DNA of 32,779 nt, taken from contig JAQVYQ010000018.1 in NCBI GenBank assembly GCA_028708575.1, positions 1 to 32,779 of the forward strand, in the 5' to 3' direction. The DNA is from Tissierellia bacterium. GTDB taxonomy: Bacteria > Bacillota > Clostridia > Tissierellales > Tissierellaceae. A program made the translations under genes and the position numbers. The notes beneath the pieces were generated by a model. The model did not search any database. It had not been told where the DNA came from and was given only the letters and a program-made list of their open reading frames with translations. Shown piece by piece: positions 311-32,444 of the stretch (position 1 is the first letter of the stretch; each line of letters begins with the position of its first letter).

Positions 311-329
311 CTGAATTAAAACAAAAAGA

Positions 330-348
330 GTTGCTTCTTTCAAGCAAC
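330..348 (-). terminator. Intrinsic terminator downstream of aroD
   Basis: GTTGCTT/AAGCAAC stem followed on the minus strand by ctctttttgtttt. Confidence 0.75.
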
Positions 349-381
349 CTTTTCCTACTAATTAATAATAAATATTCATAA

Positions 382-1146
382 TTATAGCGATTTATGCAAT
401 ATTCCCAAGGTCGTAGCTAATTCATCTACAGGAATTTGTCCAGGTGCAGAAATAGCCCCTACAGCTCCAAACGTCATTGATGAACCAAACACTTCTACCG
501 ATAGTCTACTTATTACTCCTAATGGTCCCATTGACATTGTTATTATAGGCCTATCTGCATATTTAGTATGCATCTCATTTGTTGCTGCTAATAATGTCAA
601 AACGTCCTCTGTTGATTGAGGCATTACAGCTATCTTTGGTATATCAGCTCCCATGTCTTGCATCTTCTTTAATCTTGATACTATATCATCTTTATCTGGT
701 GTCTTGAAGAAATCGTGGTTTGAACCTACTACTAATGCTCCAGCTTTATGTATATTTCTTATATTTTCCTCAACAAACTCATCACCTGAGTATATCTCAA
801 CATCAACTAAATCTACATTGCCTGATTGAGCTACTACTTTATTTAATTCAGTATATGCTTCCATTGATATTTCTTTTTCTCCACCTTCTTTTTTGGTTCT
901 GAAGGTAAATAAAATTGGAATATTTGGAATCGTTGCTCTTAAGTCCTTTAATGTATCTAATAGTTTTTCTTTATTAAAAACGTCTTCGTAGAAATCCACC
1001 CTCCACTCTACAACGTCAATATTCATCATAATTTTGATTTCTTGTGCTTTACATATAATTTCATCTTTTGTTTTGCCAACTATTGGTACTATTATCTTTG
1101 GATTACCTTCTCCTATGGTAACATTTTTTACTTTTATCGCTTTCAA
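382..1146 (-). CDS. aroD: Type I 3-dehydroquinate dehydratase
   Basis: 254 aa; type I DHQase-like motifs EWRVDF, GSNHDF (His), KIAVMP (Schiff-base Lys), SMGPLGVISR, GQIPV. Confidence 0.9.
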   Translation of the reverse strand: MKAIKVKNVTIGEGNPKIIVPIVGKTKDEIICKAQEIKIMMNIDVVEWRVDFYEDVFNKEKLLDTLKDLRATIPNIPILFTFRTKKEGGEKEISMEAYTELNKVVAQSGNVDLVDVEIYSGDEFVEENIRNIHKAGALVVGSNHDFFKTPDKDDIVSRLKKMQDMGADIPKIAVMPQSTEDVLTLLAATNEMHTKYADRPIITMSMGPLGVISRLSVEVFGSSMTFGAVGAISAPGQIPVDELATTLGILHKSL

Positions 1147-1190
1147 ATTTAACCTCCTTTTAAATGCTTATATACAAAAGTAAATTCTAT

Positions 1191-2366
1191 TTATAAATAT
1201 ACTCTCCTACCCTCGCTTGCTGAAACATATGCTGCATATAATATTTTTGTTGTTTCTGCGGCTATTTCAAAACTTGATATAGGTTGCTTATCATATGCAA
1301 CACATTCTAAAAAATCTTGCATTTGATTAACGTATCCCCTTTTTATACTTTCAGATACGAAAACTTTATTCCAACCAGTTTTATTTTCCAACTTTTCTGA
1401 AATATATACATCTTCTAAATCCTCTTGATCAATAAAGTAGGTTTTAAGTTCATCTGTAGGAGTGATATTACATATCAATGAACTATCATTAGTGTATATC
1501 TCTATATAATTCTTCACCCCACCTAAAACATTATCGTTAGCAAATATTGTTGCCTTAGTATTATCTGTAAAAGTTATAGTCATAGTTCCAAAATCTTCTA
1601 CATCCAATGGGTTTGCCCTTAGATATTTTCTTTTTTCCGAAGTTAAAGTAGTAGCAATAGAACCTATATCTGCTACAACACTTTTTACTTTAATATCAAT
1701 CCCCTTTGTTTTAGCTTCTATATTTTTTAAATATAGAATGCCCCCCAATGGATGACAACCTATTCTCAATAGAGTACCACCACCTGTATCTTCCCATGAA
1801 CTAGCAAAGCTAGATGGGGAACCTTGAACACTTTCTTCACCTTTCATAAACAAAATAGTGCTCTTCTTTTTATTAATAATCTCAGCTGCTTTTTGTATAT
1901 TAGGAGAATAAATATAATTTTCTGCATACATAAACTTTTGATTACTATTTTTAATTGTATTTCTAAGTTTTTTTATGTCAGCCAAGACTTTATTATACAT
2001 TTTCTCCTTTGAAACCTTTATGCCAATTGGTTTTTTATCATTAGGCATTCCGAAATATCCAGTAAGAGGTTTTTCACAAATTACGTGTTTTCCCGCTTCC
2101 ATAGCTTCTGTAGTCATTATAAGATGAGTAGATGGCGGTGTTGCTAAAATTACAACATCAATATCTGTATCTTGCAAAACTTCCTTATAGTTATCAGTAT
2201 ACTTATAATAACCATAAATATTAGCAATTTGTTTAGCTGATTCAAGTTTTGTATCAGCAACTGAAACCAAATCTATATCCATCCCAGCAATCCGTTTAAT
2301 AGAATCGCTATGCAACCTTGCTGCAAATCCAGCTCCTATCATACCAACATTTAGCTTTTTCAACAA
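1191..2366 (-). CDS. Gfo/Idh/MocA family NAD(P)-dependent oxidoreductase
   Basis: N-terminal Rossmann GMIGAGFAARLH, VVILATPPSTH and ICEKPLTG (EKP motif). Confidence 0.85.
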   Translation of the reverse strand: MLKKLNVGMIGAGFAARLHSDSIKRIAGMDIDLVSVADTKLESAKQIANIYGYYKYTDNYKEVLQDTDIDVVILATPPSTHLIMTTEAMEAGKHVICEKPLTGYFGMPNDKKPIGIKVSKEKMYNKVLADIKKLRNTIKNSNQKFMYAENYIYSPNIQKAAEIINKKKSTILFMKGEESVQGSPSSFASSWEDTGGGTLLRIGCHPLGGILYLKNIEAKTKGIDIKVKSVVADIGSIATTLTSEKRKYLRANPLDVEDFGTMTITFTDNTKATIFANDNVLGGVKNYIEIYTNDSSLICNITPTDELKTYFIDQEDLEDVYISEKLENKTGWNKVFVSESIKRGYVNQMQDFLECVAYDKQPISSFEIAAETTKILYAAYVSASEGRRVYL

Positions 2367-2378
2367 TCCACTCCCCTT

Positions 2379-3881
2379 TTATCTATTTAGCAACTTTTTC
2401 TCTCTTGTTTTTTTCCAAAAGTTACTTTGTGAAAAAGACATGAATATTATAGCTACAAGTAGAATCAGAGAAATTGGATTTGTTACTATATCAATAATAA
2501 AACCTATTAGGCTATTCCCTGCCATAGAAACTGCTCTTCTAAAACTTTGCTCAATTATAGTACTTAATATAACTCCTAATATTAAGGGGGCTGTTGGAAA
2601 ATGATAAAGTTTTAATAAATATCCAATTATTCCGAATCCTAACATCCAATAAATATCTGCAATGCTATTATTAATTGCATATGAACCCACAACTGATAAT
2701 ATTATTATAGTAGGCATAAGAATATATTTCGGAATTTCAACAATTTTAGTAAATAACTTAATACCCATAAATCCAAATATTAGTAAGAATATATTGCCAA
2801 TAAAATTGCCTGCGACAATGAAACCAAATGCGTCTGGAGATTCAGTCATAAATAATGGTCCCGGCCTTAAACCGTGAATTAACAAAGCTCCAAGAATTAT
2901 TGCCGTAACAGCGTCACCTGGTATACCTAAAGTTAACATTGGTATATATGCTCCTCCAATTGCGGCATTATTAGCGGTTTCAGGTGCAACTAATCCTTCA
3001 ATAGCTCCTTCCCCAAAAGGCACTTCTGGATTTTTTGTGGTTCGTTTAGCTTGATCATAAGCAATTAATGCTGCTATATCACCACCAGTACCTGGCAATG
3101 CACCAACAAAAACACCTATTAGAGAAGATTTAATAGTCAAAACAAAGTACTTTACGTGACCTTTAAAATCTGGTTTCAAATTATCTACCTTTTGTTTTAC
3201 TGGATAGACACTTAAATCTCTTAATTGTATTAGGGCTTCTGACATCCCAAATAATCCTAGCATAACTACAACATAATTTACTCCCCCCATTAAATATGTG
3301 TTTCCAAAAGCAAATCGTTGTTGACCAGTTACTAGATCCAAGCCTATAGTCCCAATAAATAAACCTATTAATGCGGTGAAAATACCTCTGGAGTTAGATT
3401 CACTACCTAAACTACCTACCAATAGTAGCCCCATCATACCTAATAGAAAATAGTCCCTAGGTGCAAATTTTAATGCAATATTAGAAATTAATGGTGCTCC
3501 TATGGCTAAAATTACTGCCCCTATTAGCCCCCCCATAACCGATGACAAAGTTGCTACAGCTATTGCTTCTCCAGCTAATCCCTTTTTTGCTAATGGATAT
3601 CCATCTAGTGAAGTAGCTACTGCTGCCGTAGTTCCAGGTATATTTAGTAATATAGCTGCCCTAGAACCACCATACACACCACCAATTTGTGCCCCAAGCA
3701 TAGCTGCTAATGCAGGTAGAGGTTCCCATGAAAAGGTAAAGGAAATAAGTAAGGAGCAGGCCATCGAAACTGATAATCCAGGCATAGCACCAACGTATAT
3801 TCCTAAGAAAACAAAAAGTGCTAGGATTCCAATTAATGAAGGATTTAAAATTATTGATAACATACCATTTATGATTTCCAC
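2379..3881 (-). CDS. Tripartite tricarboxylate transporter large permease, TctA family
   Basis: 500 aa polytopic; GAMPGLSVSMACSLL, GGVYGGSRAAILLNIPGTTAAVATSLDGYPLAKKG, GALPGTGGDIAALIAYDQAKR. Confidence 0.95.
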   Translation of the reverse strand: MEIINGMLSIILNPSLIGILALFVFLGIYVGAMPGLSVSMACSLLISFTFSWEPLPALAAMLGAQIGGVYGGSRAAILLNIPGTTAAVATSLDGYPLAKKGLAGEAIAVATLSSVMGGLIGAVILAIGAPLISNIALKFAPRDYFLLGMMGLLLVGSLGSESNSRGIFTALIGLFIGTIGLDLVTGQQRFAFGNTYLMGGVNYVVVMLGLFGMSEALIQLRDLSVYPVKQKVDNLKPDFKGHVKYFVLTIKSSLIGVFVGALPGTGGDIAALIAYDQAKRTTKNPEVPFGEGAIEGLVAPETANNAAIGGAYIPMLTLGIPGDAVTAIILGALLIHGLRPGPLFMTESPDAFGFIVAGNFIGNIFLLIFGFMGIKLFTKIVEIPKYILMPTIIILSVVGSYAINNSIADIYWMLGFGIIGYLLKLYHFPTAPLILGVILSTIIEQSFRRAVSMAGNSLIGFIIDIVTNPISLILLVAIIFMSFSQSNFWKKTREKKLLNR

Positions 3882-3893
3882 TCTATTGCCTCC

Positions 3894-4370
3894 TTACGGT
3901 AACATTACTTTAAAAATATATTGAAATATAACTAAAATAACCCCAACAACCCCTGCTGAGATTAACAAAGACTTTACAATATCCCTAGGATGGAAGGTTA
4001 TCAATGATAAAGATAAGAAGAAAAATGTAGATATAGTAAATCCTACTCTAGGTAAAACAACTGCATAAATTACGATTAAAGTCATAATAGGAAATATCTT
4101 TCCTGGAAAAATATAAGCTATTATTTCTCTAATTTTCACTAATGCTTTTTTCTCACTTATGTCTACTTTATCATATTTCTTAAGTTCAACAATCATTAAC
4201 GCCGACATTACCATCATTAATATACTTAATATGAAAGGAAATGCACCCTGTGATGACAAAGTTGTATCCTTTTTATAAATCTGTATTGACAAAATAAACA
4301 GAATAATCCCAAGTAACACGTTTACTAATAAAAATGTTACCTCACCTTTCTCTAATCCTCGCTTTTTCAT
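3894..4370 (-). CDS. Tripartite tricarboxylate transporter small permease, TctB family
   Basis: Four hydrophobic segments, next to TctA. ORF track start (4430) trimmed to MKKRGLEKGEV because an AAGGAGG RBS directly precedes the ATG at 4370. Confidence 0.8.
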   Translation of the reverse strand: MKKRGLEKGEVTFLLVNVLLGIILFILSIQIYKKDTTLSSQGAFPFILSILMMVMSALMIVELKKYDKVDISEKKALVKIREIIAYIFPGKIFPIMTLIVIYAVVLPRVGFTISTFFFLSLSLITFHPRDIVKSLLISAGVVGVILVIFQYIFKVMLP

Positions 4371-4396
4371 AAAAACCTCCTTCATAATACTTAAAG

Positions 4397-4449
4397 ATAA
4401 GATGTCTTTAATAATTTTAGGTATATTCAAATTACTTAAGACATCTTAT
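4397..4449 (-). other. Intercistronic inverted repeat between tctC and tctB
   Basis: ATAAGATGTCTT (4397-4408) and AAGACATCTTAT (4438-4449), 12-bp perfect arms. Confidence 0.6.
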
Positions 4450-4464
4450 AGTTATACTTTAGGA

Positions 4465-5547
4465 TTAATTAACACGTTGAATTCCAAATTCTTCAGGCGA
4501 GCTTTCAGTTACACCAGCATCATACAATAACCAAGATGTAACGCTTCTATAATTATCTATAAAATCTCTTGCTTCTTGTCCACCGATTCCTAGTGGTACA
4601 TTTCCTAGATTTTTAGTCATTTCACTATAATCAGGATTACTTACCGCCCTTTCAAATGCTTCTGTTAGAATGTCTACAATCTCTTGTGGTGTTCCATTTT
4701 TTACAAATGCCCCATAAAATGGACCCCATGGTAAGTAATCATTAAATTTTGGATATGAATCTATTATAACCGGAACATCTTCAATTCCTTCAACTGGCTC
4801 GGTATGATATACTGCTAAACCAACAAGGTCTCCAGATCTAAGCATTTCATATGAAGACCCTAGAGTAGTAATTGTAAAATCAACGTGTTCACCTAATACT
4901 GCAGTTAAGGCACCTGCCTCTCCGTCAAAGGTTACATACTGGGCTTCAGTACCAACAATACTTTTTAACATTGAATCTGCTACTTGAGGATAACCTCCAG
5001 GACCAGTAACTGCCATTGTAACTTCACCTGGTCTTGCTAACATATCATTAACTAAATCTTCCATTGTTTTATATTTTGAATCTGATCTTACCGAAACAAC
5101 CCCAACAGTAGTAGAAAAGATATTAATTGGGATAAAATCTGAATAGTCTAGATTTGATGTCCCCATGATTTTTGCAATTTGTGGATTTTCTGCACCAAAC
5201 AGGATATTATATCCATCTGCTGATTGCTCATTTACATATTGTGTAGCAATCCCACCAGCTGCACCTGGTCTGTTTGTGAATATTACGGTTTTTCCCAATT
5301 CCTCTTGTATATAAGGTCCTAATGCTCTAGAAACACTATCGTTTATTCCACCTGCTGCCCACATTATTGTTCCTTGCAAATCTTTTGTTGGAAATTCCAC
5401 ACTTCCATTGTTTTCTGTGTTTTCAGTAGTAGTGGTTTCTAGATCTTGGTTATTACTTGTATCTGTAGTATCAGAACTACAGCCAGCCAATACTCCTGCT
5501 ATTAAGGCCAATACCAATAATAAACTAATCATTTTTTTTGTTTTCAT
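4465..5547 (-). CDS. Tripartite tricarboxylate transporter substrate-binding lipoprotein, TctC/Bug family
   Basis: Signal peptide with LAGC lipobox; AAGGIATQYV, ADGYNILFG; directly upstream of TctB/TctA. Confidence 0.93.
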   Translation of the reverse strand: MKTKKMISLLLVLALIAGVLAGCSSDTTDTSNNQDLETTTTENTENNGSVEFPTKDLQGTIMWAAGGINDSVSRALGPYIQEELGKTVIFTNRPGAAGGIATQYVNEQSADGYNILFGAENPQIAKIMGTSNLDYSDFIPINIFSTTVGVVSVRSDSKYKTMEDLVNDMLARPGEVTMAVTGPGGYPQVADSMLKSIVGTEAQYVTFDGEAGALTAVLGEHVDFTITTLGSSYEMLRSGDLVGLAVYHTEPVEGIEDVPVIIDSYPKFNDYLPWGPFYGAFVKNGTPQEIVDILTEAFERAVSNPDYSEMTKNLGNVPLGIGGQEARDFIDNYRSVTSWLLYDAGVTESSPEEFGIQRVN

Positions 5548-5629
5548 AATACATTCCTCCTAATTATTAGATTGTAGTCTGGTTAATTTTCTTGAATCTT
5601 TGACTATTAGCTGAAATATCTCCTTTCTT

Positions 5630-6448
5630 TTACAAATCATGCTTTGCTAAATAATCCATTGCAGTTTCTAAACATCTACGTGCATGTTCTGCATTACCAA
5701 GAACTCCTACCCTTTTTAAATGTGGAAGTTCAATTGAAAACGTTATATCATCTGGTAGATGCTTTATGATATCAGCTATAGGTATGCCACCTTCACCTAC
5801 ATAAAGTCTTTCATCTCTTCCTGTATGAATTAATCCTTCTTTTGTATCTGGTATTTCTGCTGGCCCATCACATAGATGTGCAAAATGAAAATAATTTCTT
5901 GGAACTGCATCTAGTTCTTCATAGGATACCCTTGAACGATTAAAGTGTAATGTATCTATCATAATGCCTGCGTTATCTTTATTTACAGCATTCAATACAT
6001 CCATGGCACCTTTTAGGTCCTTAACACTTGCCCATGTAACGAATTCAAGATCTACATTAAGTCTATATTTATTTGCTATATCGCAAAGCTGTGCAAATTG
6101 CTCTATGTAGAAATACCTATCATCAATCCATATACTGCTAAGAACGCTCTTTGCACCTAATTCAGCTGCTACTTCTATTGCTGGTTTATATTGCTTAACA
6201 TCTCGCCCTTCCTCAATTTTTGCTAATTCAATATCGTGGACCTTTAAACCAGTTTCTTTAAGTGCAGTTTTTGTATCTTCAAGCATTTTTTTATTGTTTG
6301 CTAAGTCATAGTTGGGCTCACCAGGTAATCCCATATATATTGGTCTGATGCTAATAAAATCATATCCAGCCTGAGCTGCTATATATGTCATTTCTGGTGG
6401 TGCACAACCTAAGACCGTAAGATGTGCTAATGAAAACTTATGTGCCAT
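5630..6448 (-). CDS. Sugar phosphate isomerase/epimerase-like (AP endonuclease 2-type TIM barrel)
   Basis: MIDTLHFNRS, FAHLCDGPAE, VGEGGIPIADIIKHL, SIELPH. Start trimmed from 6463 to MAHKFSLAH after the GAGGAGGG RBS. Confidence 0.8.
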   Translation of the reverse strand: MAHKFSLAHLTVLGCAPPEMTYIAAQAGYDFISIRPIYMGLPGEPNYDLANNKKMLEDTKTALKETGLKVHDIELAKIEEGRDVKQYKPAIEVAAELGAKSVLSSIWIDDRYFYIEQFAQLCDIANKYRLNVDLEFVTWASVKDLKGAMDVLNAVNKDNAGIMIDTLHFNRSRVSYEELDAVPRNYFHFAHLCDGPAEIPDTKEGLIHTGRDERLYVGEGGIPIADIIKHLPDDITFSIELPHLKRVGVLGNAEHARRCLETAMDYLAKHDL

Positions 6449-6566
6449 TATAACCCTCCTCATATATGTCCCTGAATTATCAAAAACTATTACTTGAAAT
6501 TCTTTTACATTTTATAATTGACATCGTTTGCACAAAGTCAATTAATCTATTATTTTAAATAGGGGG

Positions 6567-6592
6567 ATATAAGGGAGTATTCTCCCTTATAT
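6567..6592 (-). other. Intercistronic hairpin between the TPP-enzyme gene and the isomerase-like gene
   Basis: ATATAAGGGAG-tatt-CTCCCTTATAT perfect 11-bp stem. Confidence 0.65.
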
Positions 6593-6613
6593 GATATTGA
6601 TTAACACCACAAA

Positions 6614-8419
6614 CTACTTACTTGTATTTAGATGTTTAGATTTTTTAGCCTCTCCACTAATTAATTTACCATTTACTACATTTTCCTTTGGATTATAAAT
6701 ATCGTTTATATTCCAAATTCCATCTGTAGGCACTGGTATGTTTTCCATTGGAGCATCAATTATATATGGGATATCTGCATTGATTGCTTCTTCAAACACA
6801 TCTTTGAATTCATCTGCAGAATTTATTCTAACACCTTTTACCCCATATGCTTGTGCAATCATAGCCCAATCTGGATTATATGGTTTCCCATTGGGGGTAT
6901 GGAATTCTGTTCCAAATGTGTGTTGATAGGCACCTTTTGTTAATCCAGCTATTGTACCAAATGCACTGTTATTCATAATAACCCATACTACAGGAATGTT
7001 TTGCTCTACTGCTGTTGCTAATACTGATGGATTAGTACCAAATCCACCATCTCCAATAAGTGTTATAACCTTCTTCTCTGGAGCTGCTAGTTTAGCACCT
7101 AAAATTGCTGCTGAACCAAATCCCATTGTTGCAAGTCCTCCTGGATGGAAAATTGTACTTGGTTGAGTTATGTCAAATTGCTGACCTACACCATTTTTAT
7201 TCCAACCAACGTCTGTGAAGATTAGCCCATCTTGTGGAAACACTTCCCTTACATCTTTAAGTATTCTTTGTGGTGTCATTGGAAATCTTGAATCTTCAGA
7301 TATTTCTCTATTTGATTCTTTAAACTCTGCTTTGTAATCAGCTATTTTCTTTCTAAGTTCTGGTCTGTCAATTCCCTCTGGCTTTAACTCTTTAGCTGCT
7401 TCAAATATTTGAGCTAAAGCTTGTTTAGGATCTGCAACTGCACCAATTTCAACTGGATAGTTCCTTCCAATTTCAGCTGGATCTATATCAATTTGAATAA
7501 ATTTCGACTTTTGGCTAAATGTTACTCCCTCATACCATGAGCTAGAATCAGCCTCTGCAAATCTAGTTCCTACTCCTAGGATCAAGTCCGCATTCTTAGT
7601 TATTTCATGTACGAAATCTGTTCCCCAGAATCCTGTCATACCTACTAATAATGGATGTGTATCAGATACTCCACCTTGACCCATTAAAGATCTTGATAGT
7701 GGTATATCTAAGAAGTCTGCAAGAGCCTGTAATTCTTCACTTGCTTGGTGCCAAATTACTTGCCCGCCAAAGTGTATTAAAGGTCTTTCTGCTTCTATTA
7801 ATCTCTTTGCAATTTCCTTTGCTGTTTCCTTTGCTAGTGCTGGTTTAACTGTAAAGTGTGAATCATGATAAGTTCTTTCGAAATTACTGTCATCTATTTC
7901 TCTTGACCACATATCCATAGGTATGGAAATCAATACAGGTCCTGGTCTACCTGATTCGGCCAATCTAAATGCTTTATCAAGTATTTCAGGCATTAATTCT
8001 GGAGTATCTAATCTCCAAGCTCTCTTTACAAATGGTTTATAAATCTCATATTGTGAACCATCTGAATGTAAATTTATTTCTTGATGAGGATGTTTCCCAT
8101 AATAATAGCTTGGAACATCTCCTGCTAATACTACTAAAGGTATTGCATCTAATGCTGCATTTGCAACACCAGTGGTAGCATTAGTAATTCCGGGTCCTAG
8201 GTGGGTCATAACTACAGCTGCTTTCTTAGCTACTCTTGCATATCCATCTGCTGCTGTTGCAGCTATTTGTTCATGTCTATTTGAAATATATTTTATTTTT
8301 TCACTTTTTTCTAAAGCATCTAGAAATCCTATGACTGTGTGTCCAGTTAGTCCAAAAACGTACTCTACACCTCTTCTTTCTAAATAATCTACGATTTGAT
8401 ACGAAAGTAATTTTTTCAA
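6614..8419 (-). CDS. Thiamine-pyrophosphate-dependent enzyme, acetolactate-synthase-like superfamily, substrate unknown
   Basis: 601 aa; N-terminal GLTGHTVIGFLDAL...RHEQIAATAADGYAR, TPP-binding GDGGFGTNPS...NN motif. Confidence 0.88.
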   Translation of the reverse strand: MKKLLSYQIVDYLERRGVEYVFGLTGHTVIGFLDALEKSEKIKYISNRHEQIAATAADGYARVAKKAAVVMTHLGPGITNATTGVANAALDAIPLVVLAGDVPSYYYGKHPHQEINLHSDGSQYEIYKPFVKRAWRLDTPELMPEILDKAFRLAESGRPGPVLISIPMDMWSREIDDSNFERTYHDSHFTVKPALAKETAKEIAKRLIEAERPLIHFGGQVIWHQASEELQALADFLDIPLSRSLMGQGGVSDTHPLLVGMTGFWGTDFVHEITKNADLILGVGTRFAEADSSSWYEGVTFSQKSKFIQIDIDPAEIGRNYPVEIGAVADPKQALAQIFEAAKELKPEGIDRPELRKKIADYKAEFKESNREISEDSRFPMTPQRILKDVREVFPQDGLIFTDVGWNKNGVGQQFDITQPSTIFHPGGLATMGFGSAAILGAKLAAPEKKVITLIGDGGFGTNPSVLATAVEQNIPVVWVIMNNSAFGTIAGLTKGAYQHTFGTEFHTPNGKPYNPDWAMIAQAYGVKGVRINSADEFKDVFEEAINADIPYIIDAPMENIPVPTDGIWNINDIYNPKENVVNGKLISGEAKKSKHLNTSK

Positions 8420-8433
8420 CTAGCTCCCCCCAA

Positions 8434-9876
8434 TTATTTTTCTAATTCTGAGTCGTAGAATTCTCCAAATAGTTCTTCATCTGAAGGCCTATCTTCAGGT
8501 ATTGGTTTTGATACCCATGTGAAGTTCATATAGTGCTTTAGGCTTACATTTTCAGATATTACATTTCCACCCCAAGTACCACAGCCTAAACTTGATGTCA
8601 TTGGCATACCATTTGTAAATGAACCAGCGTTTGCTTTTGAGTTAGGCTGCCTAACCATGATTCTTGAAACTGGTGCATTAAGTGCATGTCTGTGGATATG
8701 GTCTTCATTAAATGAATAAATACCGCATGAGTGTCCTTTTCCTCCAACTTCAAATATTCCTCTTACCATTTCTAAGGCTTCTTCAAAATCATCAAATTTG
8801 AATAATGCCAATAGTGTTGTAAGTTTTTCATGTGAGAACATATACTCATGACCTATACCGTCTCCCATTACCATTATAAACTTTCTATCCTTAGGTATTT
8901 CAAATCCTGCTATTTTTGCAAGTTGTTGAGGTGCAATAGCTACTGTGTCTGCAAGTCTTTTTCCTTTTTCATCCCACATTACTTTTTCTAATGAAGCTTT
9001 TTCTTTTTCATTTGCTAGATATCCACCAACATTTTGAAGTTCTTTTACCATTTCATCGAATATACTTGCCTGTATTATTAAATTCCCGTCTGCAGAACAT
9101 CCAGAACCATTATCAGATGTTTTGCTTTCCATTGTATTCATAGCTGCCTTTTTTATATCTGCAGTTTCATCTATGAGCATTGATGCGTTTCCTGCACCTA
9201 CTCCATATGCTGGTGTTCCTGCTGTATATGCTCTCCTTACCATATTTTGTCCGCCTGTTGCCAAAACAAGATCTGCTTCACCCATTACTGCCATGGACAT
9301 TGCTTTATTTGGATTACCTTTTAAACATTGTAATATATCTGGATTAACTCCTTCTTTTTCTAAAGCCGCTCTCATTAAGTCTACAGTCTTATTTGTAGTT
9401 TGTTGTGAACGTGGATGTGGTGAAAACACTACAACATCTCTTGCTTTAATTGCATATATTGCTGTTCCTGCTGGAGTTAAATCAGGGTTTGTTGTTGGAA
9501 CTAATGAAGCTATTATTCCTGCCGGTTTACCGTACTTAACAATCTGTTTTTCAGGAATTTCTTCTACAATACCAACACTTTTTTGACGAAGTGCATCTCT
9601 TAAAACTCCTCTAATCTTAAATCTTTTATTCATTCTAGAAACTGGATCTCCTAATCCTGTTTCTTCAATACCAAAATCTACAAGCTTTTTAAATGTTTGC
9701 TTATTTGCTACTGACCAAGCTACCGTTCTAATTAGTCTATCTACCTTTTCTTGGTCAAATTGCTCGATTTCTTTTTGAGCTATTCTTGCTCTACTAAACA
9801 CTTCTTCTAACTCATTTACTTGATCATCTGTTAAACCTGAGTATTTTTCTTTTAAACCTTTTGTTTTTTGTACCAC
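8434..9876 (-). CDS. Aldehyde dehydrogenase family, acylating (CoA-dependent) type
   Basis: 480 aa; SLVPTTNPDLTPAGTAIYAIKARDVVVFSPHPRS, NGSGCSADGN (active-site Cys), RIMVRQPNSKANAGSFTNGMPMTSSLGCGTWGGN, similar to acylating acetaldehyde/sulfoacetaldehyde dehydrogenases. Confidence 0.85.
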   Translation of the reverse strand: MVQKTKGLKEKYSGLTDDQVNELEEVFSRARIAQKEIEQFDQEKVDRLIRTVAWSVANKQTFKKLVDFGIEETGLGDPVSRMNKRFKIRGVLRDALRQKSVGIVEEIPEKQIVKYGKPAGIIASLVPTTNPDLTPAGTAIYAIKARDVVVFSPHPRSQQTTNKTVDLMRAALEKEGVNPDILQCLKGNPNKAMSMAVMGEADLVLATGGQNMVRRAYTAGTPAYGVGAGNASMLIDETADIKKAAMNTMESKTSDNGSGCSADGNLIIQASIFDEMVKELQNVGGYLANEKEKASLEKVMWDEKGKRLADTVAIAPQQLAKIAGFEIPKDRKFIMVMGDGIGHEYMFSHEKLTTLLALFKFDDFEEALEMVRGIFEVGGKGHSCGIYSFNEDHIHRHALNAPVSRIMVRQPNSKANAGSFTNGMPMTSSLGCGTWGGNVISENVSLKHYMNFTWVSKPIPEDRPSDEELFGEFYDSELEK

Positions 9877-9940
9877 TATCGAATGCCCCCTACATATTTA
9901 TTTTGTTTTATTAACATATATGCAAAACATCTAATAAATT

Positions 9941-10852
9941 TTATCTAATAAGATTGCTACTTTTTCCAGCTTTAAGGATATAGCTAGGTAGGCTATGGCC
10001 TACTATTAAGCTTACTCTTTCTGCAATACTTATTACTTTATCTAAATCAATGGCAGTTTCAACTCCCATTTCATGAAGCATATGAATTACATCTTCACTA
10101 ACTACATTTCCTTCTGCTCCAGGTACAAATGGACAACCACCAAGGCCTCCAAATGATGTGTCAAACCAAGTAACACCTGCTTGCATACCAGCTAGAATAT
10201 TTGCATTTCCAACTCCTCTAGTATTATGGAAATGTAATATCCATTTTACTTGAGGAAATTCTTTTATAAACTCTGTGCACATATAATAAACTTGTAATGG
10301 AACTGCCATTCCAGAAGCATCGGAAAGGGAAACTTCTTTTATTCCTACATTTAGATATGCTTTAACGATATCTTTAACATCATTTATTGGAATCTTATGC
10401 TCCCATGGCGATCCAAAAGGCATTGATATAGAGCCTGAAATTTCAAGTCCATTAGATAAAGCTAAATCAACGCAATCTTTAAATTTGGAGACGCTCTCAG
10501 AGGGTGTCATATTAAGATTGGCAAGATTGTGTTTCTTACTTGCAGAAACATTTAGTTTCACTTTTTTGCAACCACATTCAATTGCTCTTTCTACACCTTT
10601 TAAATTAGCAACAAAAGCCCTATATTCGACTCCTTGCTTTATTTGTATCTTACTAAAAACTTCATCTGTTGAAGCCATCTGAGGAACAGCTTTAGGACTA
10701 ACAAAAGATCCAACTTCAATAACCTGATAGCCTGAATCAGAGAGTTTATTAATTAGCTGTACCTTTTCATCTACCGGAATCACTTTGTCCTCATTTTGAA
10801 GCCCATCTCTAGGGCCGACTTCACAAATTACTACTTCCTTTGGCAAATTCAT
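9941..10852 (-). CDS. Hydroxymethylglutaryl-CoA lyase-like (DRE-TIM metallolyase)
   Basis: ICEVGPRDGLQNE, VGSFVSPKAVPQMA, LHFHNTRGVGNANILAGMQAGVTWFDTSFGGLGGCPFVPGAEGNV. Start trimmed to MNLPKEV after a GGAGGG RBS. Confidence 0.9.
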   Translation of the reverse strand: MNLPKEVVICEVGPRDGLQNEDKVIPVDEKVQLINKLSDSGYQVIEVGSFVSPKAVPQMASTDEVFSKIQIKQGVEYRAFVANLKGVERAIECGCKKVKLNVSASKKHNLANLNMTPSESVSKFKDCVDLALSNGLEISGSISMPFGSPWEHKIPINDVKDIVKAYLNVGIKEVSLSDASGMAVPLQVYYMCTEFIKEFPQVKWILHFHNTRGVGNANILAGMQAGVTWFDTSFGGLGGCPFVPGAEGNVVSEDVIHMLHEMGVETAIDLDKVISIAERVSLIVGHSLPSYILKAGKSSNLIR

Positions 10853-11002
10853 AGTCTCACCCTCCATTTTTAGTAATATAATTAAATGATTGCTTTAATC
10901 TATAATTATCTGATTTGCAATATAGCTGATATTCATCTACTTTCCTTAAATGGTAAAATATACAATCTCTTATTTACTTTAATCTTATTCTGATAATACA
11001 GA

Positions 11003-11209: not shown

Positions 11210-12100
11210 ATGACACTCCAGCAATTAGAATATTTTAGGGTTTTAGCAAAAACAGAACACTTTACTAAAACAGCAGAAATTCTATCTGTATCTCAACCTA
11301 GCCTTAGTTATGCTATTGGCCAATTGGAGACAGAACTAAATATAAATCTTTTTGATAGAATTGGTAGAAATATTAAACTAAACTCCTTTGGAAAAATCTT
11401 TTTAACATATGTAGAATCTGCTCTAGATATATTAGACCAGGGAACTCAGAATATAGAACTTCTTACAAAAAAAATCAATCACAATATAAAGATGGGTTAT
11501 ATTTACAGTCTTACAGACAAACTTCTAGCAAGTATTATAAAAACATATTACTTGGATAGTTCTAATGAAACTATTACTTTTGACTTTAAAACAGATTCCA
11601 GCCTTATGCTAAACAAAAATTTAGAAATGGAAATTTTAGATATTATTCTTACTGCTATTCCACCTGAAAAGAATGACTATGTAAAGATTTTTAATCAACA
11701 TTTATATCTTATGGTTCCTAGAAACCATAAACTATCAGATAAAAAAGAAATAGATATAAAAGAGATTGATGGTATGGATTTTATTAACTATAGAAGCAAT
11801 ACAGGATTAAGAGTAATTATTGACAAGCTATTAAAATTTAATAAAACATCTCCTATTATAAAAATGGAAATAGATGAGTGTAATGCTGCTTTATCTCTCT
11901 TATCCCTTAATGTTGGTATAACAATAATGCCTATCGTTCCAGGAATAGATTATAGTAAGGTAGTCCCTATAAAAATTAAAGATGACCAAGCCTATAGGCA
12001 CATCTACCTTGCTTGGAATAATTCAACAAATACTAATTCAATAGTAAAAGACTTTCGTGATTTTGTAATTGAGCTATACAATAATGACAATTTTATTTAA
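11210..12100 (+). CDS. LysR family transcriptional regulator
   Basis: N-terminal wHTH MTLQQLEYFRVLAKTEHFTKTAEILSVSQPSLSYAIGQLETELNINLFDR; divergent from the catabolic cluster. Confidence 0.95.
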   Translation: MTLQQLEYFRVLAKTEHFTKTAEILSVSQPSLSYAIGQLETELNINLFDRIGRNIKLNSFGKIFLTYVESALDILDQGTQNIELLTKKINHNIKMGYIYSLTDKLLASIIKTYYLDSSNETITFDFKTDSSLMLNKNLEMEILDIILTAIPPEKNDYVKIFNQHLYLMVPRNHKLSDKKEIDIKEIDGMDFINYRSNTGLRVIIDKLLKFNKTSPIIKMEIDECNAALSLLSLNVGITIMPIVPGIDYSKVVPIKIKDDQAYRHIYLAWNNSTNTNSIVKDFRDFVIELYNNDNFI

Positions 12101-12535: not shown

Positions 12536-13807
12536 TTAATACCAACCTCTTATTTTCATTGTATCTGCAATCTTTTTAACAGAATGCATATATGTTGCCT
12601 TTCTCATGCTAGTATTATATTTTTCTTTAATTTCCCATATGTTATTGAAAGCATTAATCATAATTAATTCCTGTTCCTTGATTACTTCTTCTTCTGACCA
12701 ATAGTGACCTGACAGGTTTTGTACCCATTCAAAGTATGATACTGTTACCCCACCTGAGTTTGTTAGTATATCTGGTGATAATGGAATACCTCTTGTCTCC
12801 AATACCTTATCTCCATCAGCTGTTACTGGTCCATTTGCTGCTTCGCAAACTATTTTAGCATTTACCTTTCCTGCTACTTCTTCTGTTATTGCATTTTCCA
12901 TTGCTGCTGGTATTAGTATGTCTACATTTAATTCCCAAAATTCATCTAATGTAATCATTTTAGCTTTTGGATAATTAACTAGGTTATGATTTTCTTTCAT
13001 GTATCTTAACATATCGTCATGATCCAACCCATTTTCATTGTATATTGCATAAGTGCCTACATCCCTTGACCATTCACCTAATGCTACAATTTTTGCTCCT
13101 TGATCTTCTAGAGCTTTTAATGTAAATTCCCCAACATTTCCAAAGCCTTGTATAGCTACTTTTGCACCATTTATATCTATTCCATATTTTTTTGCAAACT
13201 CTCTTACTATTACTGATACTCCAAAGCCAGTTGCTTTGTTTCTCCCTTTTGAGCCACCCCATTCTAAAGGCTTCCCAGTTATTACTCCTATAGATTGGTG
13301 TCCTGTCAACTTAATGTATTCATCAGTCATCCATGCCATGATTTGACCATTTGTATTTACATCTGGTGCAGGTACGTCTACTTTTTCCCCTAAATACTTA
13401 TAAAGGCCTTGGATATAACCTCTGGATAGTCTTTCTAACTCTCCCTGTGAAAGGGATTGAGGATCTACTATTACTCCGCCTTTTGCTCCACCAAATGGAA
13501 TCCCTATTACACTACATTTAAATGTCATCCAAATAGAGAGCGCTTTTACTTCATCTGCATTTACGCTTGGGTGAAATCTAATTCCACCTTTCCCAGGCCC
13601 TACTGCATCGTTATGTAAAGCTCTATATCCTTTAAATACTTTTATATTACCATTATCCATTTTTACTGGAATGGATATTTCTATTATTCTTCGAGGTTCT
13701 TTTAGTATTTCATACACTGATGAATCTAATTTAAGTGCTTGGCAGGCTGTCTTTACTTGTAATTGAGCATTTTCTAATTGGTTTAATTCGTCTATCAATT
13801 TTGTCAT
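12536..13807 (-). CDS. Glu/Leu/Phe/Val dehydrogenase family, most likely glutamate dehydrogenase
   Basis: 423 aa; GGIRFHPSVNADEVKALSIWMTFKCSVIGIPFGGAKGG, VPAPDVNTNGQIMAWMTDEY, AIQGFGNVG. Confidence 0.93.
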   Translation of the reverse strand: MTKLIDELNQLENAQLQVKTACQALKLDSSVYEILKEPRRIIEISIPVKMDNGNIKVFKGYRALHNDAVGPGKGGIRFHPSVNADEVKALSIWMTFKCSVIGIPFGGAKGGVIVDPQSLSQGELERLSRGYIQGLYKYLGEKVDVPAPDVNTNGQIMAWMTDEYIKLTGHQSIGVITGKPLEWGGSKGRNKATGFGVSVIVREFAKKYGIDINGAKVAIQGFGNVGEFTLKALEDQGAKIVALGEWSRDVGTYAIYNENGLDHDDMLRYMKENHNLVNYPKAKMITLDEFWELNVDILIPAAMENAITEEVAGKVNAKIVCEAANGPVTADGDKVLETRGIPLSPDILTNSGGVTVSYFEWVQNLSGHYWSEEEVIKEQELIMINAFNNIWEIKEKYNTSMRKATYMHSVKKIADTMKIRGWY

Positions 13808-17161: not shown

Positions 17162-17249
17162 GGAGAGATGGTTGAGTTGGCTGAAGGCGCTCGCCTGGAA
17201 AGCGGGTAGGCGGGAAACCGTCTCGAGGGTTCGAATCCCTCTCTCTCCG
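17162..17249 (+). tRNA. tRNA-Ser(GGA)
   Basis: GGAGAGA acceptor pairs with TCTCTCC, long variable arm, anticodon loop CTGGAAA, GGTTCGAATCC T arm; encoded CCA at 17250-17252. Confidence 0.95.
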
Positions 17250-17264
17250 CCATTAGAAATTTTT

Positions 17265-17532
17265 GCCGTGCTAGATGGGGAGTTAGCGGCACCCTATAAC
17301 CTGCAATCCGCTATAGCAGGGTTGAAGTCCTAGTCTAGTCTCATCTATTGTGAGGCCTGCCCCAGATAAGTGGTGTTGAAGGTTGGGTCCTGCGCAACGG
17401 AAGCTCATGAACCTCGTCAGGTCCGGAAGGAAGCAGCGATAAGTGAGAAATTCCGTGTGCCGCAGATTCACCTGACCTGAGCTAACTGTTTGGGTAACGC
17501 TTGGAATAGACTGGCAAACCTAGGTGCACGGC
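17265..17532 (+). ncRNA. ffs: Signal recognition particle RNA (large Gram-positive type)
   Basis: Apical-domain signature GTCAGGTCCGGAAGGAAGCAGCGATAAGTGAG; complementary ends GCCGTGC...GCACGGC; about 268 nt. Confidence 0.95.
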
Positions 17533-29513: not shown

Positions 29514-30866
29514 TTAACCAATTCCTCCTAGAAGAACACCTGAAATATAAACTAAAATTGTTACAAATACGAAAACATATTTAGTCATAGGTTCAAACCA
29601 TCCGCCAATTTGTATAGATCGGCCTTTTTGAAGTTCATTTTTAGTATAATTAGTCCCAAATACCCAATAGAACATAATTGCTGCTATTACTGCTCCTATA
29701 GGATTTATATAAATAGAAACAACATCCATCCATTCTCCTACTATACCCTGAATTAGCAAACTAGAAATTAATCCTAAAGCACCTATGGTAAGAGTTGATT
29801 TAGTCCTGGAAAATTTGAATTCATCCTGTAAGGCTGCTATTGAAGTTTCATATAAATTTACAATTGATGTCATTGAAGCAAATGTAACTGCTACAAAGAA
29901 TATTATTGCAACAATTCTACCTCCTGGCATGTTCTTAAACAAATTAGGAAGATGAATAAATAATAAGCCTGGTCCACCTTCAGACAATTGACTACCTGTT
30001 GTTGCCATAGCAGGTATTATTACCAATGCTGCTAATAAAGCAGCTGCTGAATCAAATATGGCAACTATCTTAGCACTATATAATATATCTTCGTCGTCTT
30101 TAAGATATGAACCATAAGTTACTGTACCACTACCTCCAAGGGATAAGGAGAAGAACGCTTGCCCTAATGCATAAATCCACACTATTGGATCTAATAAGCC
30201 TTTAGGGTCAAAAGTAAATATATATCTGTAACCATCTGCAGCACCTGGTAAAGTAGAGATATATATAGCTAAAACTATGAATAATACGAAAAATAGAGGC
30301 ATCATAAATTTATTTAATTTTTCGATACCTTTTGCAACCCCAGCATTCATTATAAAAAAAGATAGCAAAATGGTTATTATAACCCATGTAGTATTACCAA
30401 ATGAGGATGCCATACCCCCAAAGGCTGCTCCGAACTCCTCCATAGAAGTTGGTGTGAATATTGAACCTGTGAAGACTCCTACAGTATATTTTAAAATCCA
30501 ACTTATAACAACAGTATAGCCTATAGCTAATAACAAACTTCCAATTGTAGGGATAAATCCAAATAAACGCCCCATATTTTCACTTTTCCCTTTAGAGCCC
30601 ATGGCTTTTGCAAAGGCTCCAATAGGACCATTTCTAGTGGAACGACCTAGACCCATTTCTCCAATTAATCCAGAATATCCAATCACTACTACGAAGAAAA
30701 TATAAGGTAATATAAATGTTCCACCACCGTAAAGGGATACTCTAGTAGGAAATAGCCAAATATTGCCCATGCCCACAGCTGAACCAACGCAAGCTAAAAT
30801 GAATCCTAATTTATTGTTGAATGTCTCTCTGCCTACAGCATTGATTTGATTATTTTTATTACTCAT
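29514..30866 (-). CDS. Neurotransmitter:sodium symporter family (NSS/SNF) amino acid transporter
   Basis: 450 aa; NNKLGFILACVGSAVGMGNIWLFPTRVSLYGGGTFILPYI signature. Confidence 0.93.
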   Translation of the reverse strand: MSNKNNQINAVGRETFNNKLGFILACVGSAVGMGNIWLFPTRVSLYGGGTFILPYIFFVVVIGYSGLIGEMGLGRSTRNGPIGAFAKAMGSKGKSENMGRLFGFIPTIGSLLLAIGYTVVISWILKYTVGVFTGSIFTPTSMEEFGAAFGGMASSFGNTTWVIITILLSFFIMNAGVAKGIEKLNKFMMPLFFVLFIVLAIYISTLPGAADGYRYIFTFDPKGLLDPIVWIYALGQAFFSLSLGGSGTVTYGSYLKDDEDILYSAKIVAIFDSAAALLAALVIIPAMATTGSQLSEGGPGLLFIHLPNLFKNMPGGRIVAIIFFVAVTFASMTSIVNLYETSIAALQDEFKFSRTKSTLTIGALGLISSLLIQGIVGEWMDVVSIYINPIGAVIAAIMFYWVFGTNYTKNELQKGRSIQIGGWFEPMTKYVFVFVTILVYISGVLLGGIG

Positions 30867-31058: not shown

Positions 31059-32444
31059 TTATACAATAGGTTCTAGATGTGCTTGGAAATGACGTAAAAT
31101 CATTGGTTGCCAAGCTATTCTGTAGCCTTTAATGCTGTCTGCTCTATCTTTAATTGCTATAAGAGCATCTGCCATAATATCAAAATGTGCTTGTGTATAA
31201 ACTCTCCTTGGAACTGCAAGCCTTGTAAACTCAAATTGAGCCTCCAATTGTTCACCTGTATCAGGATCATTACCCATCATATAAGAACCTATTTCACTAG
31301 TTCGTATTCCAGCTTCTTTGTATAGTTCAATAGCCAGTGCTTGAGCTGGATACTCATAATATGGAATCTGTGGGAACATTGCTTTTGCATCAATAAATAA
31401 TCCATGTCCTCCTACTGGTGCTTGGTATGCTATACCAGCATTGTCTAGTTTTGCTGCTAGATATTCTAGTTGGCCTATTCTATAAGTTAAGAAGTCTTCA
31501 TCTTGACCTTCATATAGTCCAATGGCTAATGCTTCTAAATCTCTACCAGATAAGCCTCCATATGTGGTAAAACCTTCATTTGATATGCAATTTGCTTTTA
31601 CTTTTTGATACAATTCTTGATCATCTTCTTTAATACCTATTAATCCACCCATATTTACAATAGCATCTTTCTTAGCGCTCATTGAAAATGTATCTGCATA
31701 GCTAAACATTTCTCTTGTAATTTCTTTAATACTTGAGTTTTTAAACTCTTCTTCTCTTTGCTTTACAAAATAAGCATTTTCCGAGAACCTAGCAGCATCT
31801 ATATCCAATGGAATACCATATTTCTTACAAACGGCTGAAACATCTCTCATATTTTGAACTGATACAGGTTGACCACCTGCAGAATTGTTAGTTATAGTCA
31901 TTACAACTAATCCTACATTTTCTTTTCCAAGTTCATTAATAGTTGCCTCTAGTTTTTCAACATCCATATTTCCTTTAAAAGGAGCTCTTATAGTAGGGTC
32001 TTTTGCTTCTTCTACTACACAATCTATTGCCCTACCACCAGCTAATTCAACATGAGCTCTTGTTGTATCAAAAAACATATTAGCTATGGCATACTTCCCT
32101 TTAGATATTAATACTGGGAATAATACTTTTTCTGCAGCACGCCCTTGATGTACTGGTTGAATAATTTCATAGCCAAATATATCTTTACCAGCTTCCATAA
32201 GTTTAAAGTAACTCTTTGAACCAGCATAGGATTCATCTCCAACCATTATGCCAGCCCATTGTTCTGAACTCATTGCATTTGTACCACTATCAGTACATAA
32301 ATCAATATACACATCTTCTGATTTTAGGTTGAAAAGATTATATTTAGCATCCTTAATCTTTTCTTCTCTTTCTTCTCTGCTAAGCACCTTAAGTGTTTCT
32401 ACCATTTTAATCCTAAATGGTTCTGCAACATACTTTATTGTCAT
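31059..32444 (-). CDS. tnaA: Tryptophanase (PLP-dependent beta-eliminating lyase)
   Basis: [55 protein letters not shown] carries Ile where tyrosine phenol-lyase has Arg (SMERG). Confidence 0.88.

Follow-up and report, generated by a model that had tools for sequence, protein, structure and literature searches.

A candidate operon for anaerobic breakdown of quinate and shikimate by a non-aromatising route in a Tissierellia bacterium

Which substrate is consumed by a gene cluster that joins a carboxylate importer and a dehydroquinase to a ThDP-dependent enzyme, an acylating aldehyde dehydrogenase (ALDH) and a homologue of HMG-CoA lyase (HMGL)? We met this cluster in the window, i.e., the whole stretch of 32,779 nucleotides analysed here, which belongs to a 97.7% complete draft genome (G000) of a Tissierellia bacterium. 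Plants contain quinate and shikimate in abundance, chlorogenic acid being a source of free quinate, and both acids enter anaerobic habitats, e.g., guts, rumen, silage and digesters. Isolates that ferment them exist, but our search of the open literature found no gene-level route for this use. We consider it probable that the cluster is an operon through which quinate and shikimate are degraded anaerobically without formation of an aromatic ring.

The cluster comprises nine genes, all on the minus strand (382-10867), and every named gene is a complete open reading frame. Read from the HMGL gene to the dehydroquinase gene, the intergenic gaps measure 64, 14, 150, 82, 34, 12, 12 and 44 bp. With one strand, gaps of at most 150 bp and an intrinsic terminator-like stem-loop plus T-run found by a scan directly beyond the last gene (329-349, minus strand), which closes the operon, the layout is operon-like. 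A perfect 11-bp inverted repeat (6567-6592; scan), possibly a transcript-processing or attenuation hairpin, lies in the 150-bp spacer that separates the ThDP gene from the TIM-barrel gene. Sigma-70 promoter-like sites showed no excess in the scan (62 vs 65 in shuffles). A LysR-type regulator (11210-12100, plus strand; HTH_1 5e-17, LysR_substrate 2e-21) is encoded divergently, and LysR genes also flank eight related clusters. The preliminary description of a minus-strand cluster divergent from a LysR gene is thus borne out by complete reading frames and by Pfam and NCBIfam families; of its span, 382-10852, only the start shifts, as the HMGL frame has its first ATG at 10867 and 10852 corresponds to the second.

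In the route that we propose, TctABC would import quinate or shikimate, and a dehydrogenase (Gfo/Idh in the window, AroE family in most relatives) would oxidise the C3 hydroxyl, giving 3-dehydroquinate from quinate and 3-dehydroshikimate from shikimate. Dehydroquinase would hydrate 3-dehydroshikimate to 3-dehydroquinate. The TIM barrel would then remove water across C4-H/C5-OH of 3-dehydroquinate, the bond change made by dehydroshikimate dehydratase, to yield 1-hydroxy-3,4-dioxocyclohexane-1-carboxylate, a dione that would not aromatise because the tertiary 1-OH is retained. The ThDP enzyme is predicted to attack C3 and to split C3-C4 with water, forming homocitrate semialdehyde, OHC-CH2-C(OH)(COOH)-CH2-CH2-COOH; attack is set at C3 and not C4 since only C3 gives a 3-hydroxyacyl-CoA. 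The acylating ALDH would convert the semialdehyde to homocitryl-CoA, which the HMGL homologue would cleave into acetyl-CoA and 2-oxoglutarate. The sum, quinate + CoA + 2 NAD+ -> acetyl-CoA + 2-oxoglutarate + 2 NADH + 2 H+, balances in C, H and O. Gene content, families, conserved linkage, presence/absence patterns and conserved residues are established directly; the substrate, the order of steps and each catalytic activity we infer.

This reading is supported by the conservation of the core. In Tissierellia and other Firmicutes, the HMGL-like protein, acylating ALDH, ThDP enzyme and TIM barrel remain linked; we found this core in about 20 further genomes that span several families and orders, with several gene orders, and its clustering is not due to chance. 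We compared 22 related loci, leaving out Aneurinibacillus; several of the absences among them are due to contig ends. The neighbourhood of the ThDP enzyme includes the TIM barrel in 20 of these loci, ALDH in 18, HMGL in 17 and AroE in 16. The transporter varies between relatives (TctABC, TRAP, Dpp-type ABC, MFS), and Gfo/Idh and zinc-ADH variants occur among the related clusters. AroE-family proteins of related clusters score above TIGR00507, a type I dehydroquinase adjoins the core in 5 of the 22 loci and occurs also in G571, and shikimate kinase is found in the cluster of G066, AroA in that of G077 and AroA with AroC in that of G571. These genes point directly at hydroaromatic acids. Thus, the conserved co-occurrence on which the preliminary description had staked its quinate/shikimate-like hydroxy acid is present across genera and, together with the AroE, dehydroquinase, AroK, AroA and AroC context, supports such a substrate.

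The entry genes of the window would import and oxidise such an acid. TctC (4465-5547, minus strand; TctC 2.3e-33), TctB (3894-4430, minus strand; TctB 1.7e-16) and TctA (2379-3881, minus strand; TctA 3e-142), i.e., the solute-binding protein and the small and large membrane subunits, adjoin as in tripartite tricarboxylate transporters, and we propose that TctC binds quinate or shikimate. The Gfo/Idh/MocA dehydrogenase (1191-2366, minus strand; GFO_IDH_MocA 7e-21) scores 88.5 bits against the 355 of the IolG equivalog TIGR04380 and was rejected as inositol 2-dehydrogenase. A family search of the 97.7% complete draft found no Shikimate_dh_N and hence no AroE, and on this ground we guess that the Gfo/Idh protein stands in for AroE as quinate and/or shikimate 3-dehydrogenase; in the G061 and G087 clusters, homologues 45-50% identical adjoin AroE. 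The type I 3-dehydroquinate dehydratase (382-1146, minus strand; DHquinase_I 1.7e-76) reaches 248 bits in the AroD equivalog-domain model TIGR01093 (cut-off 139.3), has 3js3 as its closest PDB entry (6e-90) and conserves the SNHDF and PKIAVMP stretches; no second dehydroquinase, type I or type II, was found in G000. Since G104, a genome in a single contig, carries the complete module but neither type of dehydroquinase, the enzyme is dispensable and probably serves shikimate entry in the hydration direction (dehydroshikimate to dehydroquinate). The reaction order suggested earlier fits; we refine it by treating dehydroquinase as a probable entry, not an obligatory step, and by predicting acetyl-CoA and 2-oxoglutarate as products. 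The same logic could act on another alicyclic hydroxy acid, e.g., a quinate epimer or a cyclitol carboxylate, with AroE and dehydroquinase working on an analogue. The dehydrogenase variants of relatives speak for this, as does an Aneurinibacillus TIM barrel, 61% identical, among genes resembling cyclohexanecarboxylate metabolism; however, a dehydroquinase above the AroD cut-off and AroA, AroC and AroK within relatives' clusters indicate true shikimate intermediates, and we judge it unlikely.

The xylose-isomerase-like TIM barrel (5630-6463, minus strand; AP_endonuc_2 6e-21) is the putative dehydratase. Its AF2 model (pLDDT 95.6) has IolI, Lmo2234 and the QuiC1 dehydroshikimate dehydratase 5hmq as nearest folds, with IolE (3cny) lower down; in sequence, 5hmq and 3dx5 match weakly (6.5e-7 and 1e-4). 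A metal set of Glu134, Asp164, His190 and Glu239 is invariant in 24 relatives, as are His167 and Arg210. By motif and spacing, Glu134, Asp164 and Glu239 equate with the Glu/Asp/Glu ligands common to AsbF, QsuB and Qa-4 (PMC9324987, PMC7442255), a set that other superfamily barrels have as well. Fold and ligands would also suit a dehydroshikimate dehydratase of QuiC/AsbF type in a cluster that degrades quinate and shikimate via dehydroshikimate and protocatechuate, whose ThDP enzyme, ALDH and HMGL would then handle some later intermediate or a separate one. However, we recognised no ring-cleaving dioxygenase, decarboxylase or aromatic-CoA gene in the module loci examined, protocatechuate lacks the tertiary hydroxyl for an HMGL-type lyase, and the three co-conserved enzymes are left without explanation, which makes this course quite unlikely. 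For the non-aromatising route, we propose that the TIM barrel is a 3-dehydroquinate C4/C5 dehydratase with chemistry like that of IolE and dehydroshikimate dehydratase.

Chorismate biosynthesis in the cluster carriers bears on the purpose of import. Family searches in G104 (99% complete) and G125 (93% complete) found no AroC, AroA, AroB, DAHP synthase (DAHPS) or dehydroquinase of either type, SKI matches were sub-threshold or fragmentary, and the single AroE lies inside the cluster. As no chorismate-pathway enzyme was found among those tested, this AroE, judged by gene content, must be catabolic, and a biosynthetic role was rejected for these two genomes. DAHP and DHQ synthases are missing from 10 of 15 cluster genomes, and four of these ten keep AroK, AroA and AroC, so imported quinate or shikimate may in several relatives also feed chorismate. 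These patterns, and the genome's own AroC behind a second TctABC, might suggest that import serves chorismate salvage only, with ThDP enzyme, ALDH and HMGL belonging to unrelated metabolism. The full module in G104 and G125, where no chorismate pathway was found, and the catabolic core as the most constant part render this improbable.

Ring opening and acylation are assigned to adjacent genes. The ThDP-dependent enzyme (6614-8419, minus strand; TPP_enzyme N/M/C domains) is acetolactate-synthase-like and falls under the cut-off of every model among its listed NCBIfam matches; acetolactate synthase itself was rejected (equivalog TIGR00118, 400 vs 538 bits). It shares a superfamily with cyclohexane-1,2-dione hydrolase (CDH) of Azoarcus, which physiologically cleaves a ring 1,2-dione (PMC12247030) and is matched at 8e-49 (2pgn), but acetolactate synthase and BbmA are nearer in sequence and CDH lies outside the top five. 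Glu50, His27 and His73 are invariant in 18 relatives; as a lead, His27 may correspond to CDH His28, a residue altered in engineered CDH (PMC12247030). We propose a ring-cleaving 1-hydroxy-3,4-dioxocyclohexanecarboxylate hydrolase. The ALDH (8434-9876, minus strand; Aldedh 1e-18), with Cys260 invariant in 16 relatives, finds the CoA-acylating succinate-semialdehyde dehydrogenase 8cei as best PDB match, followed by acetylating ALDH and AdhE, and was thus rightly called acylating by homology. That the nearest structure is an acylating enzyme whose aldehyde substrate bears a carboxylate counts for the proposed pathway and for a putative acylating homocitrate-semialdehyde dehydrogenase. Sulfonate catabolism via sulfoacetaldehyde, weighed because SauS (NF047625) is the top NCBIfam match of the ALDH at 480 bits, is hardly credible and was rejected given the SauS cut-off of 600, a ThDP enzyme at 282 against 620 for sulfoacetaldehyde acetyltransferase, no sulfonate-specific partner and the AroE/AroD context.

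The HMGL homologue (9941-10867, minus strand; HMGL-like 1.2e-47) belongs to the HMG-CoA lyase family by score (NF004283, 331 bits, cut-off 246) and by its catalytic Glu10, Arg14, Asp15, His206, His208 and Cys239, all invariant in 17 relatives. Arg165 and Tyr167 (human numbering), common to the human, P. aeruginosa and B. subtilis proteins compared, are replaced by Ser138 (17/17) and Ser/Ala140; the protein was therefore rejected as a true HMG-CoA lyase and filed as HMGL-family. Together with an invariant Arg77 that is absent from four solved homologues, this loss fits a substrate in which a carboxylate replaces the methyl group, and we propose a homocitryl-CoA (3-carboxy-3-hydroxyadipyl-CoA) lyase yielding acetyl-CoA and 2-oxoglutarate. 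Two product-side genes count for 2-oxoglutarate. A 2-oxoglutarate-type ferredoxin oxidoreductase adjoins HMGL in Lucifera butyrica, whose published description does not mention quinate or shikimate. In the window, glutamate dehydrogenase (12536-13807, minus strand; NF040817 GdhA 495 bits, below the cut-off of 750), a neighbour outside the operon, is a possible outlet; G085, of the same genus, likewise has a homologue (64%) close to its cluster, an adjacency seen in one genus only.

The cluster thus offers a concrete, testable pathway with predicted products and markers for metagenomes, and it suggests that some bacteria may make chorismate from scavenged hydroaromatic acids, not de novo. The preliminary description knew of no such route, and in the open-access literature we likewise found none for anaerobic quinate/shikimate use, homocitryl-CoA or hydroaromatic degradation. 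We give slightly less than an even chance to the fuller reading of an undescribed ring cleavage via homocitryl-CoA with three new activities (3-dehydroquinate C4/C5 dehydratase, 1-hydroxy-3,4-dioxocyclohexanecarboxylate hydrolase and homocitryl-CoA lyase), combined with imported acids replacing the upper shikimate pathway in Tissierellia without DAHP and DHQ synthases.

Compared with known systems, the proposed route shares with the aerobic qui/qsu/qa pathway its substrates, the dehydrogenase and dehydroquinase functions and a TIM-barrel C4/C5 dehydratase of related fold. In contrast, it would dehydrate dehydroquinate, before loss of the 1-OH, and end in acetyl-CoA and 2-oxoglutarate with neither aromatic product nor dioxygenase. 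Within the DRE-TIM family, the HMGL homologue keeps the catalytic set of HMG-CoA lyases but differs at Arg165/Tyr167 and Arg77, and its proposed reaction is the condensation of homocitrate synthase run backwards. In myo-inositol catabolism (IolG-IolE-IolD, IolA), Gfo/Idh oxidation and TIM-barrel dehydration of an alpha,beta-dihydroxyketone give a 1,2-dione, followed by ThDP-dependent ring hydrolysis and a CoA-acylating ALDH (IolA). The window pathway would follow this logic of oxidation, dehydration, ThDP hydrolysis and acylation, although no IolE or IolD model is among the NCBIfam matches listed for its proteins. It would differ in a substrate ring bearing a carboxylate and a tertiary OH, in entry through AroE or dehydroquinase, in acylation straight after ring opening with neither isomerase nor kinase, and in an HMGL-type lyase in place of the aldolase.

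The window is one entire contig (G000:C47) of a draft genome of 2.0 Mb and 97.7% completeness. Nine genes are arranged on its minus strand from 10867 to 382, in the order HMG-CoA lyase (HMGL)-like protein, aldehyde dehydrogenase (ALDH), ThDP enzyme, AP_endonuc_2 TIM barrel, TctC, TctB, TctA, Gfo/Idh dehydrogenase and type I dehydroquinase. Neighbouring genes are separated by 12-150 bp, a terminator-like hairpin (349-329) lies 3' of the operon and a LysR gene starts divergently at 11210. The preliminary description of gene families, strand and divergent regulator was accurate. The longest intergenic gap of the operon contains a perfect 11-bp inverted repeat (6567-6592). Elsewhere on the contig, a tRNA-Ser followed by a large bacterial SRP RNA (17162-17531) is found beside dnaX-recR, which is ordinary housekeeping synteny. 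A tryptophanase/tyrosine phenol-lyase homologue (31059-32444) close to a sodium-dependent transporter (29514-30866) places the breakdown of aromatic amino acids on the same contig as the operon.

The TIM barrel is present in 23 of 199 genomes of the order (9 of 78 genera) and, within a phylum sample of 399 genomes, in three further genomes outside the order; a collection scan added those of Lucifera butyrica and Aneurinibacillus. The core families, which the preliminary description had read as one possible pathway, indeed co-occur around it. Of 22 related loci (Aneurinibacillus excluded, several absences being contig ends), 20 encode the ThDP enzyme, 18 ALDH and 17 HMGL. An AroE-family dehydrogenase is present in 16 of them, and 13-15 have TRAP transporter subunits. 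The catalytic core is constant while gene order differs, and the regulators are of the LysR or IclR type. The transporter is TctABC in the window and in the related genomes G055, G111 and G216, TRAP in most loci, a Dpp-type ABC system in G077, G045, G126 and G571, and an MFS protein in Lucifera. A constant core with a swapped transporter is the pattern of a single pathway in which the chemistry is fixed and the uptake system interchangeable.

The AroE-family (shikimate/quinate dehydrogenase) proteins of the clusters score above the TIGR00507 cut-off. The window dehydroquinase is a clear AroD (TIGR01093: 248 bits, cut-off 139), and dehydroquinase I is also encoded in the loci of G082, G055, G066, G119, Lucifera and G571. 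Genes of the lower shikimate pathway occur as well, i.e., shikimate kinase within the G066 cluster, AroA in G077 and AroA plus AroC in G571. The G571 locus (L053, 1-8578) is one run of ThDP enzyme, AroE, TIM barrel, dehydroquinase, AroA, AroC and Dpp-type transporter, with catabolic and chorismate genes intermixed. Whether the dehydrogenase serves chorismate synthesis was judged from G104 (one contig, 99% complete) and G125 (93% complete). In both genomes AroC, DHQ synthase, DAHP synthase and dehydroquinase of either type were not found, no AroA scored above cut-off and shikimate kinase matches were sub-threshold or fragmentary only; the sole AroE of each is located inside the cluster. Since the chorismate pathway was not found in these two genomes, their cluster AroE cannot serve it and must be catabolic, oxidising quinate or shikimate. 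Dehydroquinase is thus dispensable in G104, which favours entry of quinate as 3-dehydroquinate, and the latter as substrate of the step after the dehydrogenase. Quinate/shikimate as the substrate class is therefore well supported, and we regard it as highly probable.

In 10 of 15 cluster-bearing genomes, neither type I DAHP synthase (PF00793) nor DHQ synthase (PF01761) was found, and an archaeal-type DHQ synthase was found in none of the 15. Four of the ten (G085, G081, G054 and G061) retain AroK, AroA and AroC. Keeping the lower shikimate pathway without the upper one suggests that imported quinate or shikimate feeds chorismate, with the caveat that genes may be overlooked in draft assemblies. 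In the genome of the window, AroC follows immediately after the genes of a second TctABC importer (L059, contig C35, 5299-9618), a run that possibly represents a shikimate salvage operon; no AroA or AroK scored above cut-off in this genome, and AroE, DAHP synthase and DHQ synthase were not found.

No NCBIfam equivalog fits the TIM barrel. Its profile (24 relatives) matches IolI, Lmo2234, several epimerases, QuiC1 (5hmq) and AsbF (3dx5), and the best fold matches of its AlphaFold model (pLDDT 95.6) are IolI, Lmo2234 and QuiC1. Glu134, Asp164, His190, Glu239, His167 and Arg210 are kept in 24/24 TIM barrels, with a spacing similar to the QuiC1/QsuB set of Glu134, Asp165, His168, Gln191, Arg210 and Glu239 (PMC7442255). 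The ThDP enzyme is acetolactate-synthase-like, yet under every cut-off among the models listed. The cluster ALDH belongs to the acylating AdhE/SauS type and scores below the SauS cut-off; its closest PDB entry is an acylating succinate-semialdehyde dehydrogenase. The HMGL homologue falls in the HMG-CoA lyase subfamily, and the catalytic set is invariant across 17 aligned homologues. In these, the positions aligned to human Arg165 and Tyr167 (numbering anchored on the mutant chain 3mp4, whose Arg41 to Met exchange is visible in the alignment) are Ser and Ser/Ala; Arg and Tyr are retained in the proteins from human, P. aeruginosa and B. subtilis. Every member of the cluster family has Arg77, where the four solved homologues compared carry Pro, Ala, Ala and Val. 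Judged from the alignment, these changes are evidence for an altered substrate, but fall short of proving homocitryl-CoA because the Arg/Tyr pair is likewise absent from the Coxiella protein 6nds.

Dehydroshikimate dehydratase yields protocatechuate by an equivalent C4-H/C5-OH removal. In inositol catabolism the analogous dione is formed by IolE, and rings of this kind are opened with ThDP by IolD and by cyclohexane-1,2-dione hydrolase (for the latter, PMC12247030). We infer every catalytic step from 3-dehydroquinate to acetyl-CoA and 2-oxoglutarate as follows. The TIM-barrel enzyme would take C4-H and C5-OH off 3-dehydroquinate, whose tertiary 1-OH would block aromatisation, to give a 3,4-dione. 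ThDP attack on C3 would open the ring and leave an aldehyde group two carbons away from the tertiary alcohol carbon. The acylating ALDH would convert this aldehyde to homocitryl-CoA, a 3-hydroxy-3-carboxyacyl-CoA and thus of the type cleavable by an HMGL-type retro-Claisen enzyme, and the HMGL homologue would release acetyl-CoA and 2-oxoglutarate. Carbon, hydrogen and oxygen all balance in the overall equation, as does redox (2 NADH).

In Lucifera, genes for the alpha, beta and gamma subunits of a 2-oxoglutarate-type ferredoxin oxidoreductase lie directly 3' of HMGL (L027, 611-4262), as assigned from best NCBIfam matches, the alpha subunit scoring above the general 2-oxoacid cut-off and not the 2-oxoglutarate-specific one. 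The Lucifera butyrica genome paper states that 2-oxoglutarate dehydrogenase is absent (PMC6315149). A glutamate dehydrogenase gene adjoins the window operon. The predicted products fit both neighbours, which were independent of building the hypothesis.

Aneurinibacillus terranovensis encodes a 61% identical TIM barrel amid CoA-transferase, acyl-CoA dehydrogenase, SDR, hydratase and ligase genes (L028, 5199-15337) that resemble cyclohexanecarboxylate metabolism, possibly a variant for another alicyclic acid.

Taken together, the conserved operon probably encodes a coherent anaerobic quinate/shikimate ring-cleavage route, whose exact chemistry is plausible and somewhat favoured in our judgement. 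No description of such a route was found in the open-access literature searched, and to our knowledge it is undescribed. Its component families are known ones, and they are combined in a manner similar to the inositol pathway.
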